NCBI RefSeq assembly: GCF_003217475.1
Contig: NZ_QJSP01000010.1
Location: 124,001 to 188,000, forward strand
From: Williamsia limnetica
GTDB taxonomy: Bacteria; Actinomycetota; Actinomycetes; Mycobacteriales; Mycobacteriaceae
Reading direction: 5' to 3'
DNA length: 64,000 nucleotides
How positions within the stretch are numbered: the first letter of the stretch is position 1; every line of letters begins with the position of its first letter. Shown here piece after piece: positions 22,343-53,081 of the stretch. The position numbers and the translations under genes were made by a program. Below the pieces are notes generated by a model. The model was not told the DNA's origin. It saw only the letters and a list, made by a program, of their open reading frames with translations, and did no database searches.

Positions 22343-22432
22343 ATGGGCGACGTGACTTCTCAAGGGGTGTGGCTCGCGATGCGGCGGCACATTGATCTCA
22401 AGCGTGCATGCAGCGCGCTGTGTCATAACTAG
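22343..22432 (+). CDS. Cysteine-containing leader peptide upstream of the sulfite reductase operon
   Basis: A 29-codon ORF from ATG 22343 to TAG 22432, with GAGGGAGG about 10 nt upstream; an internal in-frame ATG at 22379 is the alternative start. The peptide begins MGDVTSQGVWLA and ends RRHIDLKRACSALCHN. The ending strongly resembles the 'RRHVDLxRVSSALC' leader peptides found before sulfur-assimilation genes in actinobacteria. Cysteine codons at positions 23 and 27 would stall ribosomes when Cys-tRNA is scarce, so a cysteine-responsive attenuator is inferred. It is too short to be an enzyme and lies 148 nt before sirA. Confidence 0.82.
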   Translation: MGDVTSQGVWLAMRRHIDLKRACSALCHN

Positions 22433-22580: not shown

Positions 22581-24281
22581 ATGACGTCGACTGCCGACGC
22601 CCCCGGGAAACCGGCAAAGCGCGCACGACCCGCGAAACGGCGCGCAGAAGGCCAGTGGGCTCTCGGATACCGTGAGCCGCTCAACCCCAACGAGCAGGCC
22701 AAGAAAGACGACAATCCGCTCAACGTGCGGGCCCGCATCGAGAACATCTACTCCAAGCAGGGTTTCGATTCGATCGACAAGGGCGACCTGCGCGGCCGCA
22801 TGCGCTGGTGGGGGCTCTACACCCAGCGGGCCGAAGGGTACGACGGCACCTGGACCGGCGACGACAACATCGACATCCTCGAGGCCCGGCACTTCATGAT
22901 GCGGGTTCGCTGCGACGGCGGCGCTCTGAGCACCGAACAGCTTCGCACCGTCGGGCAGCTGTCGACCGAGTTCGCCCGCGACACCGCTGATCTCTCCGAC
23001 CGCGAGAACGTCCAGTACCACTGGATCAACATCGAGAACGTCCCCGAGATCTTCGAACGTCTCGAGGCTGTTGGGCTCAAGACCACCGAGGCGTGCGGCG
23101 ACTGCCCCCGCATCATCCTGGGTTCACCGCTGGCCGGAGAAGCCACCGACGAGGTCCTCGACCCCACGCCCGCGATCGACGAGATCGTCCGCCGGTACAT
23201 CGGCGATCCGAAGTACTCGAACCTCCCCCGCAAGTTCAAGACCGCCATCTCGGGGCTGCAGGACGTCGCGCACGAGATCAACGACGTCGCCTTCATCGGT
23301 GTCAACCACCCCGAACACGGTCCGGGACTGGATCTTTGGGTCGGCGGCGGACTCTCGACCAACCCGATGCTGGCCCAGCGGGTCGGCGCGTGGATCCCCC
23401 TCGACGAGGTTCCCGACGTGTGGGAGGCCGTCGTATCGGTCTTCCGCGACTACGGTTACCGCCGGCTGCGCACCAAGGCCCGGCTGAAGTTCCTGATCAA
23501 GGACTGGGGCATCGAGAAGTTCCGTCAGGTCCTCGAAGACGAGTACCTCGGCCGCAAGCTGGTCGACGGACCGGCGCCGATCCCGCTGACCGCGCCGCGT
23601 GACCACATCGGTGTCCAGAAGCTCAAGAGCGGACTGAACTCGGTCGGATTCGCGGCCATCGCCGGCCGTGTGTCGGGGACGAAGCTGACTGCGGTGGCCG
23701 ATGCCGCCGAGCGTGCAGGCTCCAACCGGATCCGCTTCACTCCGTACCAGAAGCTGGTTGTCCTCGACGTTCCCGACGACAAGGTCGAGCAGCTCATCGA
23801 GGAGATCACCCCGCACGGCCTCGAGGCCCGGCCCTCACCGTGGCGCCGGAACCTCATGGCGTGCTCGGGTATCGAGTTCTGCAAGCTCTCGTTCACAGAG
23901 ACCCGCAAGCGGTCGCAGGTGCTCGTGCCCGAACTCGAGAAGCGACTCGCGGACGTCAACGAACAGCTCGACGTGCCGATCACCGTGAACATCAACGGCT
24001 GCCCCAACTCATGCGCCCGCGCACAGATCGCCGACATCGGCTTCAAGGGCATGTTGGTCGAGGACGGCGACGGCAACACCGTCGACGGGTTCCAGGTGCA
24101 CCTCGGTGGCAGCCTCGGGCAAGACTCGGCATTCGGCCGAAAGTTGCGCCAGCACAAGGTGCTCTCGGGCGAAATAGGCGATTACATGGACCGCGTGGTC
24201 CGCAACTTCATCAAGGAACGCAACGAAGGCGAACGGTTTGCCCAGTGGGCGGTTCGCGCCGACGAGGAGGATTTGCGATGA
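22581..24281 (+). CDS. sirA: Ferredoxin-dependent assimilatory sulfite reductase
   Basis: A 566-aa siroheme/[4Fe-4S] reductase catalysing six-electron reduction of sulfite to sulfide with ferredoxin. Both halves contain ferrite-reductase-like repeats. The cofactor cysteines are in NLMACSGIEFCKLSF and INGCPNSCARAQ near residues 425-475. The substrate-binding basic residues (RxNVQYHW type: DRENVQYHWI) are present. The N-terminal 25 residues are a basic low-complexity extension. It overlaps cysH by 4 nt and heads the operon. The alternative, nitrite reductase, is disfavoured by the cysH-cysD-cysN neighbours. Confidence 0.94.
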   Translation: MTSTADAPGKPAKRARPAKRRAEGQWALGYREPLNPNEQAKKDDNPLNVRARIENIYSKQGFDSIDKGDLRGRMRWWGLYTQRAEGYDGTWTGDDNIDILEARHFMMRVRCDGGALSTEQLRTVGQLSTEFARDTADLSDRENVQYHWINIENVPEIFERLEAVGLKTTEACGDCPRIILGSPLAGEATDEVLDPTPAIDEIVRRYIGDPKYSNLPRKFKTAISGLQDVAHEINDVAFIGVNHPEHGPGLDLWVGGGLSTNPMLAQRVGAWIPLDEVPDVWEAVVSVFRDYGYRRLRTKARLKFLIKDWGIEKFRQVLEDEYLGRKLVDGPAPIPLTAPRDHIGVQKLKSGLNSVGFAAIAGRVSGTKLTAVADAAERAGSNRIRFTPYQKLVVLDVPDDKVEQLIEEITPHGLEARPSPWRRNLMACSGIEFCKLSFTETRKRSQVLVPELEKRLADVNEQLDVPITVNINGCPNSCARAQIADIGFKGMLVEDGDGNTVDGFQVHLGGSLGQDSAFGRKLRQHKVLSGEIGDYMDRVVRNFIKERNEGERFAQWAVRADEEDLR

Positions 24282-38173: not shown

Positions 38174-38300
38174 CCGGTGCGATAGTGAGTTCGCATCGCT
38201 AGCACCCATGGTGGGGGAAGCCGGTCGAAATCCGGCGCTGTCCCGCAACGGTAGGCCGTCATCGGACGGCGAGCCCGATCGCCCACATGGGGGCTTGTGA
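38174..38300 (+). promoter_or_regulatory. Cobalamin riboswitch
   Basis: The B12-box core is unmistakable: GGGGGAAGCCGGTCGAAATC followed by CGGCGCTGTCCCGCAACGG (38214-38251), then a stem (GCCGTC...GACGGC) and GAGCCCGATCGCC. Upstream GGTGCGATAG and downstream CGATCGCCC probably close P1. The 311-nt gap 38127-38437 between amidohydrolase and transporter is explained by this element plus a 140-nt expression platform with no obvious terminator. Cobalamin binding would lower expression of the btuFCD-like genes. Confidence 0.95.
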
Positions 38301-38437
38301 CTCCGTTATGTCGTCGTGGTTTGCGAGTGGGAGTCCAGTGAGGCAGCTGGTGACCCCTGACGTCCGCACACGCGCCGGGGTTGCCCTGTCGTGCTGGGAT
38401 CGACTGGTGTGCCACCTGAGCTGGATCTCGAGGTTCG

Positions 38438-48667: not shown

Positions 48668-49666
48668 TCAGGCGAGTGCGGCGTCCGGAACCCGGGTCGC
48701 CCGGACGTAGACCTCGTCGCCGTCGTTCAGACCCAACGCGGACGCGTCGCCGCGGGTGATCTGCGCATGGAAGTCCTCGCCCGTGGCGCCGTTCTCCAGT
48801 TCGACCCGCACCTCGAAGCCGAGGTAGACCACGCGTTTGACGGTTGCCTTGAGGACACCGGTCTCCGCTGCATTCGGTTCCGCCGAGCCCAGAGCGAGAT
48901 CAGGTGTCCGACCCACACGAATATCGTGCGGGCGCACCAGAACTCCGTTGAGTTTGGCGACAGAGCCGAGGAAGGACATCACGAACTTGTTGTCCGGGCG
49001 ATCGTATAGGTCGGCCGGAGAACCGATCTGCTCGATCCGCCCCTTGTTCAGCACCGCGATACGGTCGGCGACGTCGAGCGCCTCCTGCTGATCGTGGGTG
49101 ACCAGGACGGTGGTCACCTGCACCTCGTCGTGCAGCCGGCGCAGCCACGCCCGCAGGTCTTCACGGACCTTCGCGTCGAGGGCGCCGAAGGGCTCGTCGA
49201 GCAGGAGCACCTTGGGATCGACAGCCAGCGCGCGGGCCAGCGCCATGCGCTGACGCTGGCCGCCGGAGAGCTGAGCCGGATACCGGGTTTGGAAACCTGC
49301 GAGTCCGACGACCTCGAGGAGCTCGTCGACCTTTGCCTTGACCTCGTCTTTCGGCCGCTTGCGGATCTTGAGACCGAAGGCGACGTTGTCGCGCACCGTC
49401 ATGTGTTTGAAGGCGGCGTAGTGCTGGAACACGAAGCCGATGTCGCGTCGTTGCGGCGACACTCTGGTCACGTCGTCGCCGTTGATCAGCACCGTGCCCG
49501 AGTCCAGCTGGTCGAGGCCGGCGATGGCCCGCAACAGCGTCGACTTCCCCGAACCCGACGGTCCGAGAAGTGCGGTCAGGGAACCGACGGGGATGTCGAT
49601 CGAGACGTTGTCGAGCGCGGCAAAGTCCCCGTATCGCTTGTTCGCATCAATCACCGAGATGGTCAT
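48668..49666 (-). CDS. cysA: Sulfate/thiosulfate ABC transporter ATPase CysA
   Basis: A 332-aa ATPase. Walker A is GPSGSGKST, signature [15 protein letters not shown], Walker [14 protein letters not shown]-switch [15 protein letters not shown]-like C-terminal domain follows ([15 protein letters not shown]). [20 protein letters not shown] matches the CysA subfamily. It overlaps cysW by 4 nt. Confidence 0.96.
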
Positions 49667-50559
49667 ACCAGTTCACTCTCCTGCGTTTTCGGGGCTGCCG
49701 CGTTCGAGGCGGTGACCGCGTCGGTCTCGTTGCTCGCCTTCCGGCGTTCGATCTGGTTGGTGCCGGTGCGCTTTTCGACCAGGGTCATGAGCAGCAACAC
49801 CACGATGGCGATCATCATGAGCAGAGTCGCGGCCGCATAGGCGCCGTACTCGTTGTAGTCGTCGGTGTACCGCGACGACACCAGCAGCGTGAGGGTTTGC
49901 GACACGCCCGGCAGGTTGGACGACACCATGATCACGGCACCGTATTCGCCCAGTGCCCGGGCCACGGTCAGGACAACGCCGTACGACAGGCCCCACCGAA
50001 TGGCCGGCAGGGTGATCCGCCAAAATGTCTGCCAGCCACTGGCTCCCAATGTCGCGGCGGCCTCTTCTTGCTCGGTTCCGATCTCACGGAGCACGGGTTC
50101 GACCTCACGCACCACGAATGGCAGCGTCACGAAGAGGGTCGCCAGCACCATGCCCGGAAGGCCGAAGATGACGGTGAATCCGACACTTTCCAGACCCCCG
50201 AACCAACCGCCGTACCCCCACAGCAGGATCAGGGCGACGCCGACCACGATCGGTGACACCGCAAACGGCAGGTCGACGATGGCCTCGACGACGCCCCGTC
50301 CACGGAATCGTCCCCGGACGATCGCCAACGCGGTGAATACACCGAACACGACGTTGAGCGGCACCACGATCGCGACGATCAACAGACTCAGTTGCAGCGC
50401 CGAGATCGCGGCTGGAGTGGTGATCCACTCCCAGAACTGCACGATGCCGTGTTCGAAAGACCTGTAGAAGATCAGCGCCACCGGCACCACGAGCAGGACG
50501 AACAGGTACACCAGCGCGATGGTGCGCAAGGTGAGCCGAGGGAATGCGGACAGTTTCAT
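49663..50559 (-). CDS. cysW: Sulfate ABC transporter permease CysW
   Basis: A 298-aa permease with six transmembrane segments. [20 protein letters not shown] is the EAA coupling loop; [18 protein letters not shown] is the CysW signature. A poly-Ala/Glu-rich C-terminal tail extends about 25 residues beyond the last helix. Overlaps cysT and cysA by 4 nt each. Confidence 0.96.
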
Positions 50560-51404
50560 CGGTTCTGCTCCTCACGCTTGGACGTGCGGCGACCGACGAC
50601 CCGCAGTACCAGCAACACCACGAATGCGATGAGCAACAGCACCACCGAGATGGCAGCTGCGTCGACGGGCGCGTCGATCTCGATCTGCTGCTGGATGTAC
50701 TGCGACGCCACCTGGGTGTCGCCGGGGATGTTGCCGCCGATCAGGACGACCGAGCCGAACTCGCCGATCGCCCGGGTGAACGCCAGGCCCGCGCCGGACA
50801 GCACAGCGGGGGCCAGCGCGGGAAAGATGATCTTCCACCAGATGACCCAGTTGGTAGCGCCGAGAGAAGCCGCGGCTTCTTCGACCTCTTTGTCGATCTC
50901 GATCAGCACGGGCTGCACCTGACGCACCACGAAGGGCAGGGTGACGAACGCGAGCGCAATGACCAGTGCCGGCCGGGTGGCGTTGAGCTCGATGTCGATC
51001 GGGCTGTTCGGCCCGTAGAGCGACAGCAGCACCAGGCTGGCGACGATCGTCGGCAACGCGAACGGCAAGTCGATGAGCGAGTTGACGAACCGCTTGCCGG
51101 GGAACTCGTCGCGGACGAGAACCCAGGCGATCAGGGTGCCCATCACCACGTTGATCAGAGCCACGATCAGCGACACGAGGACGGTCACCTTCAGCGTGTC
51201 GATCGCGTTCTCATCGGTGACCGCGGTCCAGAAACCGCTCCAGCCGTCGTCGAACGCCTCACTGGTGATCGCGGCGAGCGGCAAGAGCACGATGATGCTC
51301 AACCACAGCCCGGCGACACCCACGCCGAGCGGTCCCACGCTTCCCCACGTTCGTTTCGCCGGCCCTGAAGGCAACGGCTTGAGCGGTGTAACCGTGGTCG
51401 TCAT
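50556..51404 (-). CDS. cysT: Sulfate ABC transporter permease CysT
   Basis: A 282-aa permease with six transmembrane segments. EAA loop EEAAASLGATNWVIWWKIIF; RAIGEFGSVVLIGGNIPGDT is typical of CysT. FPGKRFVNSLIDLPFALPT matches the second family block. Coupled by 4-nt overlap to the binding-protein gene. Confidence 0.96.
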   Translation of the reverse strand: MTTTVTPLKPLPSGPAKRTWGSVGPLGVGVAGLWLSIIVLLPLAAITSEAFDDGWSGFWTAVTDENAIDTLKVTVLVSLIVALINVVMGTLIAWVLVRDEFPGKRFVNSLIDLPFALPTIVASLVLLSLYGPNSPIDIELNATRPALVIALAFVTLPFVVRQVQPVLIEIDKEVEEAAASLGATNWVIWWKIIFPALAPAVLSGAGLAFTRAIGEFGSVVLIGGNIPGDTQVASQYIQQQIEIDAPVDAAAISVVLLLIAFVVLLVLRVVGRRTSKREEQNR

Positions 51405-52549
51405 ACCTTGCCTCCGGCGTCATAGATCTCTGTGATGGCGCCCGAAGTTCCGAACAGCGCCTTGTCCACCGCGGGCCACCCCTTGAGGTCTTTGCCCTTG
51501 TTCTCCTCGGCCGTGCCCTCCCCGAGCACCGCGCCGAGTTCCTTGATCGTCCACAGCTTCGCTATCTCACCGGGGAACAGATCTTTGGTCTCCTCGATGA
51601 CGGTCTCATCGACCGGCCGAAAGCCCTGCTCAGCCCAGATCCGCTGCGCCGCAGGTGTGAACAGATAGCTGACGAACTCGTTGGCGGCTTCCTTCTCCTT
51701 GCTGAGGTTCACCACGGCGACGGGATTCTCGATCTTGAACGTCTCCGGGGGGATGACGTAGTCGACCCGCTGACCCGGCTTCGCGGTCCCATTCTGGTTC
51801 TTGAGAAAGATCGCTTCGTTCTCATAGCTGATCAGCACGTCACCCTGTCCCTGCTCGAACGCGGTGGTCGCCTCACGGCCGGACTTGGGTTGGATGCGGG
51901 TGTGGTCGCGGACCAGTTCGGCGACGTAATCCAGACCGGCCTGCTCGTCGAGACCACCCTTGCTCTTGGCCGAGAACGGCGCCAGCAGGTTCCACTTCGC
52001 TGAGCCCGAGCTACCCGGGTTGGGGGTCACCACCTGTATGCCCGGCTTGAGCAGGTCATCCCAGGTGCGGATGTTGAGCGGGTTGCCCTCGCGAACGACC
52101 AGAGCGACGACGGATCCGAACGGCGTACTGCCGTTGGGGTACTGCTCGGCCCAGTCCTTGTCCACCACACCTGCTTTCACCAGGCGGGTGACATCCGGGG
52201 CGACCGAGAAGTTGACGACGTCGGCGGGAACTCGGCGTGCGACCTTGCGCGACTGGTCACCGGACGCGCCATAGGACGCCGCGAAGCCGATGTCTCCACC
52301 TTGTTCGGTATCGCGGAACGCCGGAATGATCTCGTCATAGCCGATCTTCGGCACCGCGTAGGCATACAGGTTCAGGTGCTTGGACCCGCTGGAGATGTCC
52401 TGGCCACCCGGTTCATCGGTGGAACCGCCGCCACAACCGGACAGCACCAGCGCAGAGACAGCGAGCACGATGATCGACGCAGCAGCGGATCTCCCTGGTC
52501 GACTCCGCCCTCGCTTTCGCGGCGCAGATCGGGATGATCGAAAAAGCAC
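51401..52549 (-). CDS. subI: Sulfate-binding lipoprotein SubI (Sbp/CysP)
   Basis: A 382-aa sulfate-binding lipoprotein starting at GTG 52549. The basic N-terminus (RSSRSAPRKRGRSRPGR) precedes a hydrophobic core and the lipobox LVLSGC. The mature part has LYAYAVPKIGYDEIIPAF, YGASGDQSRKV and VTPNPGSSGSAKWN, the sulfate-contacting segments of the family. First gene of subI-cysT-cysW-cysA. The leader peptide and two direct repeats lie upstream. Confidence 0.95.
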   Translation of the reverse strand: MLFRSSRSAPRKRGRSRPGRSAAASIIVLAVSALVLSGCGGGSTDEPGGQDISSGSKHLNLYAYAVPKIGYDEIIPAFRDTEQGGDIGFAASYGASGDQSRKVARRVPADVVNFSVAPDVTRLVKAGVVDKDWAEQYPNGSTPFGSVVALVVREGNPLNIRTWDDLLKPGIQVVTPNPGSSGSAKWNLLAPFSAKSKGGLDEQAGLDYVAELVRDHTRIQPKSGREATTAFEQGQGDVLISYENEAIFLKNQNGTAKPGQRVDYVIPPETFKIENPVAVVNLSKEKEAANEFVSYLFTPAAQRIWAEQGFRPVDETVIEETKDLFPGEIAKLWTIKELGAVLGEGTAEENKGKDLKGWPAVDKALFGTSGAITEIYDAGGKV

Positions 52550-52567
52550 GGTTGTGTCCCCTATTTT

Positions 52568-52602
52568 TGTTCAGGTCAGAGTCAGTTGTGTTCAGGTCAG
52601 AG
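52568..52602 (-). promoter_or_regulatory. 14-bp direct repeats 21 bp apart upstream of subI
   Basis: On the minus strand CTCTGACCTGAACA occurs twice, at 52589-52602 and 52568-52581, exactly two helical turns apart, within 20-55 nt of the subI start and after the leader peptide stop. Being inside the transcript they may act as DNA sites for a regulator or as RNA elements of the attenuator. The remainder of the 52550-52803 gap contains the leader ORF and its promoter. Confidence 0.55.
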
Positions 52603-52647
52603 CCTTGAATGCCGATCGGCGGCAGGACGAAGCCGCAGACATGTCGA

Positions 52648-52737
52648 TCAGCGACACAGAACGTCGAACACGCAGCGATAGTCGACCGCGAACAGCGCCA
52701 GGGTGTGGCGCACGCGGTAACCGCTGGGTGCTGACAT
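52648..52737 (-). CDS. Cysteine-containing leader peptide upstream of subI-cysTWA
   Basis: A 29-codon ORF from ATG 52737 to TGA 52648 with no Shine-Dalgarno. It begins MSAPSGYRVRHTLALF and ends AVDYRCVFDVLCR, with cysteines at 22 and 28, immediately before the stop. It is 98 nt upstream of subI. The lack of a ribosome-binding site with a -10-like TACTGT 7 nt before the ATG points to a leaderless mRNA. Cys-rich leaderless ORFs acting as attenuators are described for mycobacterial sulfur operons; the same role is inferred here. Confidence 0.65.
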   Translation of the reverse strand: MSAPSGYRVRHTLALFAVDYRCVFDVLCR

Positions 52738-52744
52738 AGGCCGA

Positions 52745-52750
52745 ACAGTA
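52745..52750 (-). promoter_or_regulatory. -10 element of the leader/subI promoter
   Basis: TACTGT on the minus strand ends 7 nt before the ATG of the leader peptide, so transcription would start at or next to the A of ATG. No convincing -35 is seen, which is common in this order. Confidence 0.5.
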
Positions 52751-52803
52751 GCAGCTGAAAACGGGGTCAGAAGCGCGTGAGTGAGGTCTTGCTCACACGG
52801 CAT

Positions 52804-52881
52804 TCAGCGCAGCAACAACCAGGCCACGACGACGAGAACGATCAGGCCGATCAGGGCCATTGTCACCTTCGAGCGGGGCAT
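52804..52881 (-). CDS. 25-aa single-pass membrane peptide
   Basis: An ORF of 25 codons starting at an ATG that shares a base with the stop of the upstream small gene (TGATG). It reads MPRSKVTMALIGLIVLVVVA then WLLLR, a basic start and one transmembrane helix. Coupling to the neighbour suggests a real gene. Function unknown; it is too short for homology claims. Confidence 0.5.
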   Translation of the reverse strand: MPRSKVTMALIGLIVLVVVAWLLLR

Positions 52882-53081
52882 CACTGTTCTCCGGTTTCGA
52901 CGTCGGTCGACTCGCGGCGATCGAACAGCCGAAACGAGCCATCTACCAGGAGGTTCATCAAATAGGACAGGCCGATCGCAAGCGGTACGACGATGGCGGC
53001 GGACACCAAGATCTGGGGAACAAAGGACAGCGAGGTCAACCATTCCTCGACGCCGTCCCACCAGCGGGTCACTTCATCCAC
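52881..53081 (-). CDS. Small membrane protein (Rv2401A-like)
   Basis: A 66-aa protein. A tryptophan-rich start (DEVTRWWDGVEEWL) is followed by a single membrane segment (ILVSAAIVVPLAIGLSYLMN) and an acidic C-terminus. It lies between subI and the GH15 gene, the place of Rv2401A in M. tuberculosis. No catalytic features. The role is unknown. Confidence 0.7.
   Translation of the reverse strand: MDEVTRWWDGVEEWLTSLSFVPQILVSAAIVVPLAIGLSYLMNLLVDGSFRLFDRRESTDVETGEQ

Follow-up and report, generated by a model that had tools for sequence, protein, structure and literature searches.

A short open reading frame on the minus strand stands directly ahead of a set of sulfate importer genes in the window (the whole 64,000-nt stretch of Williamsia limnetica DNA analysed here), and it raises the question of whether this frame encodes a leader peptide that senses cysteine and, if so, how a ribosome paused on it could influence the genes that follow. 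Our reading, which we consider very probable, is that a local leaderless Cys leader of the Ms4533A type heads a subI-cysT-cysW-cysA operon, and that ribosome stalling at a UGU codon when tRNA-Cys charging is low raises importer expression. The features on which this reading draws are as follows, in transcript order (window positions).

52745-52753, minus strand: extended -10 element TGC-TACTGT (TGNTANNNT), separated by 7 nt from the leader start codon
52648-52737, minus strand: leaderless-type leader ORF, Ms4533A-type (29 codons plus TGA)
52696-52710, minus strand: inverted repeat CGCCA-CACCC-TGGCG, codons 10-14 of the leader (R-H-T-L-A)
52672-52674, minus strand: first Cys codon of the leader, C22 (TGC)
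52654-52671, minus strand: V-F-D-V-L-C motif (V-x-D-x-x-C), with the UGU of C28 at 52656-52654
52586-52602, minus strand: direct repeat, copy 1 (not conserved in the genus)
52565-52581, minus strand: direct repeat, copy 2 (not conserved in the genus)
52557-52562, minus strand: Shine-Dalgarno sequence of subI, AGGGGA, conserved across the same-genus genomes in the alignment
51401-52549, minus strand: subI, sulfate ABC transporter substrate-binding protein (TIGR00971 above cut-off)
50556-51404, minus strand: cysT, sulfate permease (TIGR02139 above cut-off)
49663-50559, minus strand: cysW, sulfate permease (TIGR02140 above cut-off)
48668-49666, minus strand: cysA, sulfate transporter ATP-binding protein (TIGR00968 above cut-off)

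A probable cysteine leader ahead of the sulfate importer genes

The ends of subI, cysT, cysW and cysA overlap, and 98 nt separate the leader stop from the GTG start codon of subI at 52549. The leader peptide encoded at 52737-52648 (minus strand) is MSAPSGYRVRHTLALFAVDYRCVFDVLCR, whose translated C-terminal end reads RCVFDVLCR; a 29-codon ORF with this ending before a sulfate importer had been proposed in a preliminary description of the DNA, and both the sequence and homology bear it out. The same description had pointed to a start without a Shine-Dalgarno sequence and to TACTGT 7 nt upstream of the ATG. Both are seen in the sequence: TACTGT occupies 52750-52745, 7 bases ahead of the leader ATG and preceded by TGC, and the 20 bases upstream of the ATG hold no Shine-Dalgarno sequence. 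With this arrangement, the RNA would begin at or beside the ATG, and we therefore place the putative transcription start of the leader at or adjoining that codon. Directly upstream of the promoter lie two short overlapping ORFs (52804-53081, minus strand), one of which ends in a hydrophobic segment; similar sequence precedes subI in relatives.

End to end, the peptide matches the NCBIfam model NF042937, 'Ms4533A family Cys-rich leader peptide' (E value 2.2e-7; 31.0 bits in the protein search and 28.5 bits in the genome search, cut-off 31), and so very probably belongs to a named family known in mycobacteria; on sequence grounds, the window leader is an Ms4533A-type Cys leader, a kind already named from those bacteria. 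With other members of the family it shares, besides the full-length match, the leaderless-type promoter spacing, a location ahead of the importer operon's sulfate-binding protein gene and a conserved Cys adjoining the C-terminus. The Williamsia form differs in having two separated Cys codons (RCVFDVLCR), whereas most members have V-A-D-x-x-C with one Cys or several clustered ones. Among the accessible papers searched, none named Ms4533A or Ms5788A.

Of the 251 genomes of the taxonomic family searched with the HMM, 138, spread over 20 of its 31 genera, yielded an NF042937 leader, 125 of them over the cut-off; the 14 control genomes yielded none. The comparative set comprised 156 loci, reduced to 134 distinct DNAs, with some loci representing one genome present in two collections and seven HMM places left out (second places in G062, G168 and G208, and those in G145, G162, G202 and G230). 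The spacing between TANNNT and the start codon is 7 nt for 119 of the 134 distinct leaders, 6 nt for 10 and 8 nt for 4, with no TANNNT in 1, counts that should be read knowing that part of the set was collected under a requirement for TANNNT 5-9 nt upstream and that the choice of start codon favours 7 nt when several starts fit. Tandem subI-like genes, each preceded by its own Ms4533A-type leader, occur on one contig of genome G017 (L016 and L028), and two leaders are listed in several further genomes.

Within the genus, SubI is near-identical (97-98 %) in the nearest named genomes, which are Williamsia, and the leader ORF precedes subI with TANNNT 7 nt upstream in 9/9 genomes. Whether close relatives keep the Cys codons had been singled out beforehand as a point on which the proposal could fall, and the proposal held: all nine genomes have TGT as the last Cys codon, and C22 is Cys in eight, being replaced by Ser in L009. 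A Williamsia-like subI with its leader also occurs in a record titled Kitasatospora arboriphila (L034, NZ_JNYV01000005.1), which is probably mislabelled or contaminated.

Gordonia departs from this pattern. A leader was found at 1 of 25 Gordonia-titled subI loci (L047); 23 gave none, and one (L064) came without upstream DNA. The scan required TANNNT 5-9 nt before the leader and a leader within 500 nt of subI, so that absence here means absence of that leader form. Gordonia-type loci without a leader include L037-L058 (except L047), L060 and L065. The Gordonia loci that were read by eye show a TAGCNT-type element shortly upstream of subI; in L060, L065 and L012, a related locus, TAGCTT sits within a few bases upstream of a possible subI start, which would fit a leaderless subI. 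That the leader seems to be missing from most Gordonia loci makes the genus a natural point of comparison.

For the Cys-leader explanation, we counted the TGT of the peptide motif described below (134/134 leaders), TANNNT at 7 nt (119/134), presence throughout the genus (9/9) and the importer genes downstream; set against these are an HMM score at or below the cut-off and the 24 of 25 Gordonia-titled loci that gave no leader.

Constraint on the peptide and on its RNA

Every one of the 134 distinct leaders carries V-x-D-x-x-C, and the Cys codon is TGT every time. Elsewhere, TGT accounts for 44 of the 171 Cys codons counted in 43 window ORFs and for 3 of 48 in the genes of the subI loci; a protein HMM has no means of selecting codons. 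The motif Cys adjoins the stop codon or sits a few codons away from it in most leaders. Counting after residue 8, 88 of the 134 leaders have two Cys and 33 have one, the latter weakening the notion of a plain codon counter.

These features suggest, tentatively, an elaboration in which the V-x-D-x-x-C segment and the residues preceding it contact the ribosomal tunnel, so that a single slow UGU gives a strong cysteine-dependent stall, with an inverted repeat in the R-H-x-L-A codons acting in the RNA, for example as a polymerase-pausing hairpin; we regard this as possible but unlikely. In addition to the fixed motif and its UGU, it is favoured by the V and D of the motif, which are invariant in the 128 of 134 leaders of the core alignment despite varying codons, and by pN/pS, which is 0.33 in the 13 codons between the inverted repeat and the motif Cys vs 0.78 in codons 2-9 (123 leaders, 2500 sampled pairs), a difference that the HMM-based collection of leaders may exaggerate. 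The same bias applies to the conserved residues at large, the leaders having been gathered largely by HMM.

The RNA half of the proposal concerns the inverted repeat, which in the window genome forms the core of a larger predicted stem when the mRNA is folded; the window mRNA folds better than its shuffles (z -2.7). The family form is CGCCA-N5-UGGCG within the R-H-x-L-A codons, and all five pairs could form in 125 of the 132 leaders that had an identifiable copy of the stretch. Arg is always CGC (116/116), and its partner Ala is GCG in 118 leaders and GCC in 10; in the eight leaders in which the stretch opens with Gly (GGC/GGT) and closes with Ala, the latter is GCC and the pair is kept. In L009, the arms read CACCA/UGGUG. 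The repeat begins at a distance of 9 codons from the leader start in 123/129 leaders; a hairpin at this fixed distance from a leaderless start, combined with an arrest peptide, may pause RNA polymerase and so let the first ribosome catch up.

Tests of the hairpin itself gave mixed results. Among 122 distinct 60-mers used for pair counts, 98.4 % of cells pair and 9 cells have changed on both sides (vs 0.6 in shuffles), but these compensatory changes stem from few events, 8 of the 9 cells falling at one pair in apparently one genus and the remaining one at another pair. The covariation score is higher with the partners slid by +2 (0.076) than for the repeat pairs (0.064), and the RNAalifold consensus lacks the repeat hairpin, preferring another short structure of 3 pairs. 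The hairpin is present in the MFE of 72/122 60-mers, with a pair probability above 0.5 in 96/122, and in 121 of the 126 motif-carrying leaders when the leader ORF is folded alone. Rare codons are also enriched outside the repeat (Leu TTG and Ala GCT), so the constraint on the RNA is not the hairpin alone. Taking these sequence data together, we regard the inverted repeat as constrained and hairpin formation as likely. The proposed polymerase pause is modelled on his/trp geometry. A pause signature around the repeat (G at -10, C/T at -1, G at +1) was seen in 91/128 leaders and is no proof, being largely fixed by the amino acids. A downstream partner for the repeat was also rejected: within 120 nt after the stop, CGCCA occurs in 25/134 and TGGCG in 24/134 loci, vs 27.4 and 21.6 in shuffles.

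What is new here, then, is a set of apparent family constraints, namely V-x-D-x-x-C with a fixed UGU, a 13-codon stretch constrained at the protein level and a 5-bp inverted repeat, and these may point to a stall assisted by the peptide and to a hairpin that pauses the polymerase. The general form of the idea, that Ms4533A-type leaders are cysteine-dependent arrest peptides with one obligatory UGU and an R-H-x-L-A hairpin that perhaps pauses RNA polymerase, and are not plain codon counters, we hold to be rather doubtful. The invariant UGU with V-x-D-x-x-C, together with the inverted repeat, is the part worth following up.

From a proposed ribosome stall to the importer genes

For the Cys leader that we favour, the extended -10 promoter would start the RNA at or beside the leader ATG; when charged tRNA-Cys is short, a ribosome would stall at the UGU of C28 before the stop codon, and C22 may help. 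The stalled ribosome would turn the importer genes up, and with ample cysteine the leader would be completed and importer expression would go down. We infer both the stalling and the cysteine response from the family to which the leader belongs.

A direct route would be a switch from the leader to the subI Shine-Dalgarno (SD) sequence, i.e. translational attenuation by SD sequestration. Four loci with doubtful subI starts (L013, L072, L074 and L095) were dropped before the SD-opening and base-composition analyses. In the former, 31 nt were masked at the last Cys to represent a ribosome, and 38 of 42 loci were scored. Masking eased opening of the subI SD by at least 1 kcal/mol in only 3/38 loci (L001, 1.1; L081, 2.6; L090, 6.7), the gain at the window locus equalled that in its shuffles (1.1 vs 1.1), and 26/38 loci had an SD that opened more readily than in their shuffles. 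The switch was accordingly set aside, having no general folding support across the 38 scored loci, and control of transcription, through Rho or through a pause in the leader, is therefore as likely a route.

One such route is Rho-dependent attenuation of the tnaC type, in which a ribosome stalled at the Cys near the stop codon would hide C-rich untranslated RNA from Rho. The motif Cys, which in most leaders adjoins the stop or is only a few codons from it, fits this scheme, and so does the 20-nt stretch directly behind the leader stop, where C outnumbers G in 34/42 loci (C 0.36, G 0.25; subI coding sequence for comparison, C 0.34, G 0.33). No terminator-like site was found in 52400-52900 in a search for intrinsic terminators, which also agrees with it, and the same interval gave no Rfam match up to an E value of 1. 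The argument is, however, one from base composition only, a mycobacterial rut site has no known defining motif and the C excess extends beyond the bases at the stop; it is compatible with Rho control. We think this route unlikely, though possible.

A more remote candidate is offered by the direct repeats between the leader and subI. The preliminary description was right that they exist (17 nt, 94 % identical, start-to-start distance 21), and near-identical copies two helical turns apart could suggest an operator or an RNA element controlling subI. A regulatory role is not supported, because the pair is missing from the greater part of the genus: only G000, G001 and G002, 3/9 same-genus genomes, have both copies (allowing up to 2 mismatches), G003 has one copy, G005-G008 have one weak match (4 mismatches) and G004 has none. 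The repeat GACCTGAAC is found in 2/134 family loci, and both copies lie downstream of the presumed transcription start. The repeats were thus rejected as an operator, an explanation that we consider very unlikely.

That the leader is a chance reading frame can be dismissed, since 9/9 genomes of the genus, and the family more widely, keep the reading frame, the motif, the distance to the promoter and the place ahead of subI. It is the window's sole ORF of 15-45 aa with TANNNT 6-8 nt before ATG or GTG and at least two Cys in the last ten residues, a pattern within chance for the window alone because 40 block-shuffled windows average 0.9 such ORFs; we accept the frame as real because of its NF042937 homology, its presence throughout the genus and its family promoter spacing.

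Relation to other cysteine leaders and attenuators

The window holds a second Cys leader, which resembles another family.

22343-22432, plus strand: Cys leader, Ms4527A-like (NF042936, E value 9e-9, 34.8 bits, below the cut-off of 45)

It precedes a 566-aa ORF (22581-24281), a putative sulfite/nitrite reductase. Elsewhere in the window, a cobalamin riboswitch lies at 38191-38304 (plus strand), above the Rfam gathering score. The Ms4527A family resembles the Ms4533A family in being made of Cys-rich leader peptides with several leaders per genome, but its peptide is different (RRHVDLKRVCS-type) and it uses both Cys codons, unlike the UGU of the Ms4533A motif. Looser criteria gave 30 Ms4527A-type loci (L196-L225), corresponding to 28 distinct leaders, in which Cys is encoded by 74 TGT and 35 TGC codons, richer in TGT than ordinary window genes.

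The suggestion that two different Cys leaders serve this stretch stands as far as the peptides go, which are distinct, one of them leaderless-type before the sulfate importer; the arrangement is not new. Shell 2015 describes conserved leaderless Cys-rich uORFs before cysA2, Rv0485 and nirA, and ribosome occupancy on Cys-rich leaderless uORFs of M. smegmatis (PMC4633059), and a 2026 paper, citing Canestrari 2020, places several cysteine genes of M. smegmatis under translation attenuation (PMC13236596). With mycobacterial leaderless Cys-rich uORFs in print, a pair of unlike Cys leaders heading separate sulfur operons is a known arrangement. The polycysteine leaderless short ORFs of mycobacteria treated in Canestrari 2020 are said to act by SD sequestration. 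Like them, the window leader is a leaderless-type short ORF heading a sulfur operon, with Cys codons near the stop; unlike them, it lacks a run of Cys, and SD sequestration is not generally supported at the subI loci.

The present analysis would extend to Williamsia-like bacteria a cysteine-sensing leader known from mycobacteria, leaderless promoter included, and supplies a testable pattern for cysteine sensing by what may be a single UGU codon. Should the fixed UGU, the conserved peptide and the inverted repeat prove functional, the accepted view of a polycysteine stall would not be complete for this branch. In E. coli, TnaC and the trp and his attenuators control their operons through a leader-peptide stall near the end of the leader or through a pausing hairpin, and the Ms4533A-type leaders, which have no sequence relation to them, may by analogy follow the same logic of leader stalling and pausing hairpins.
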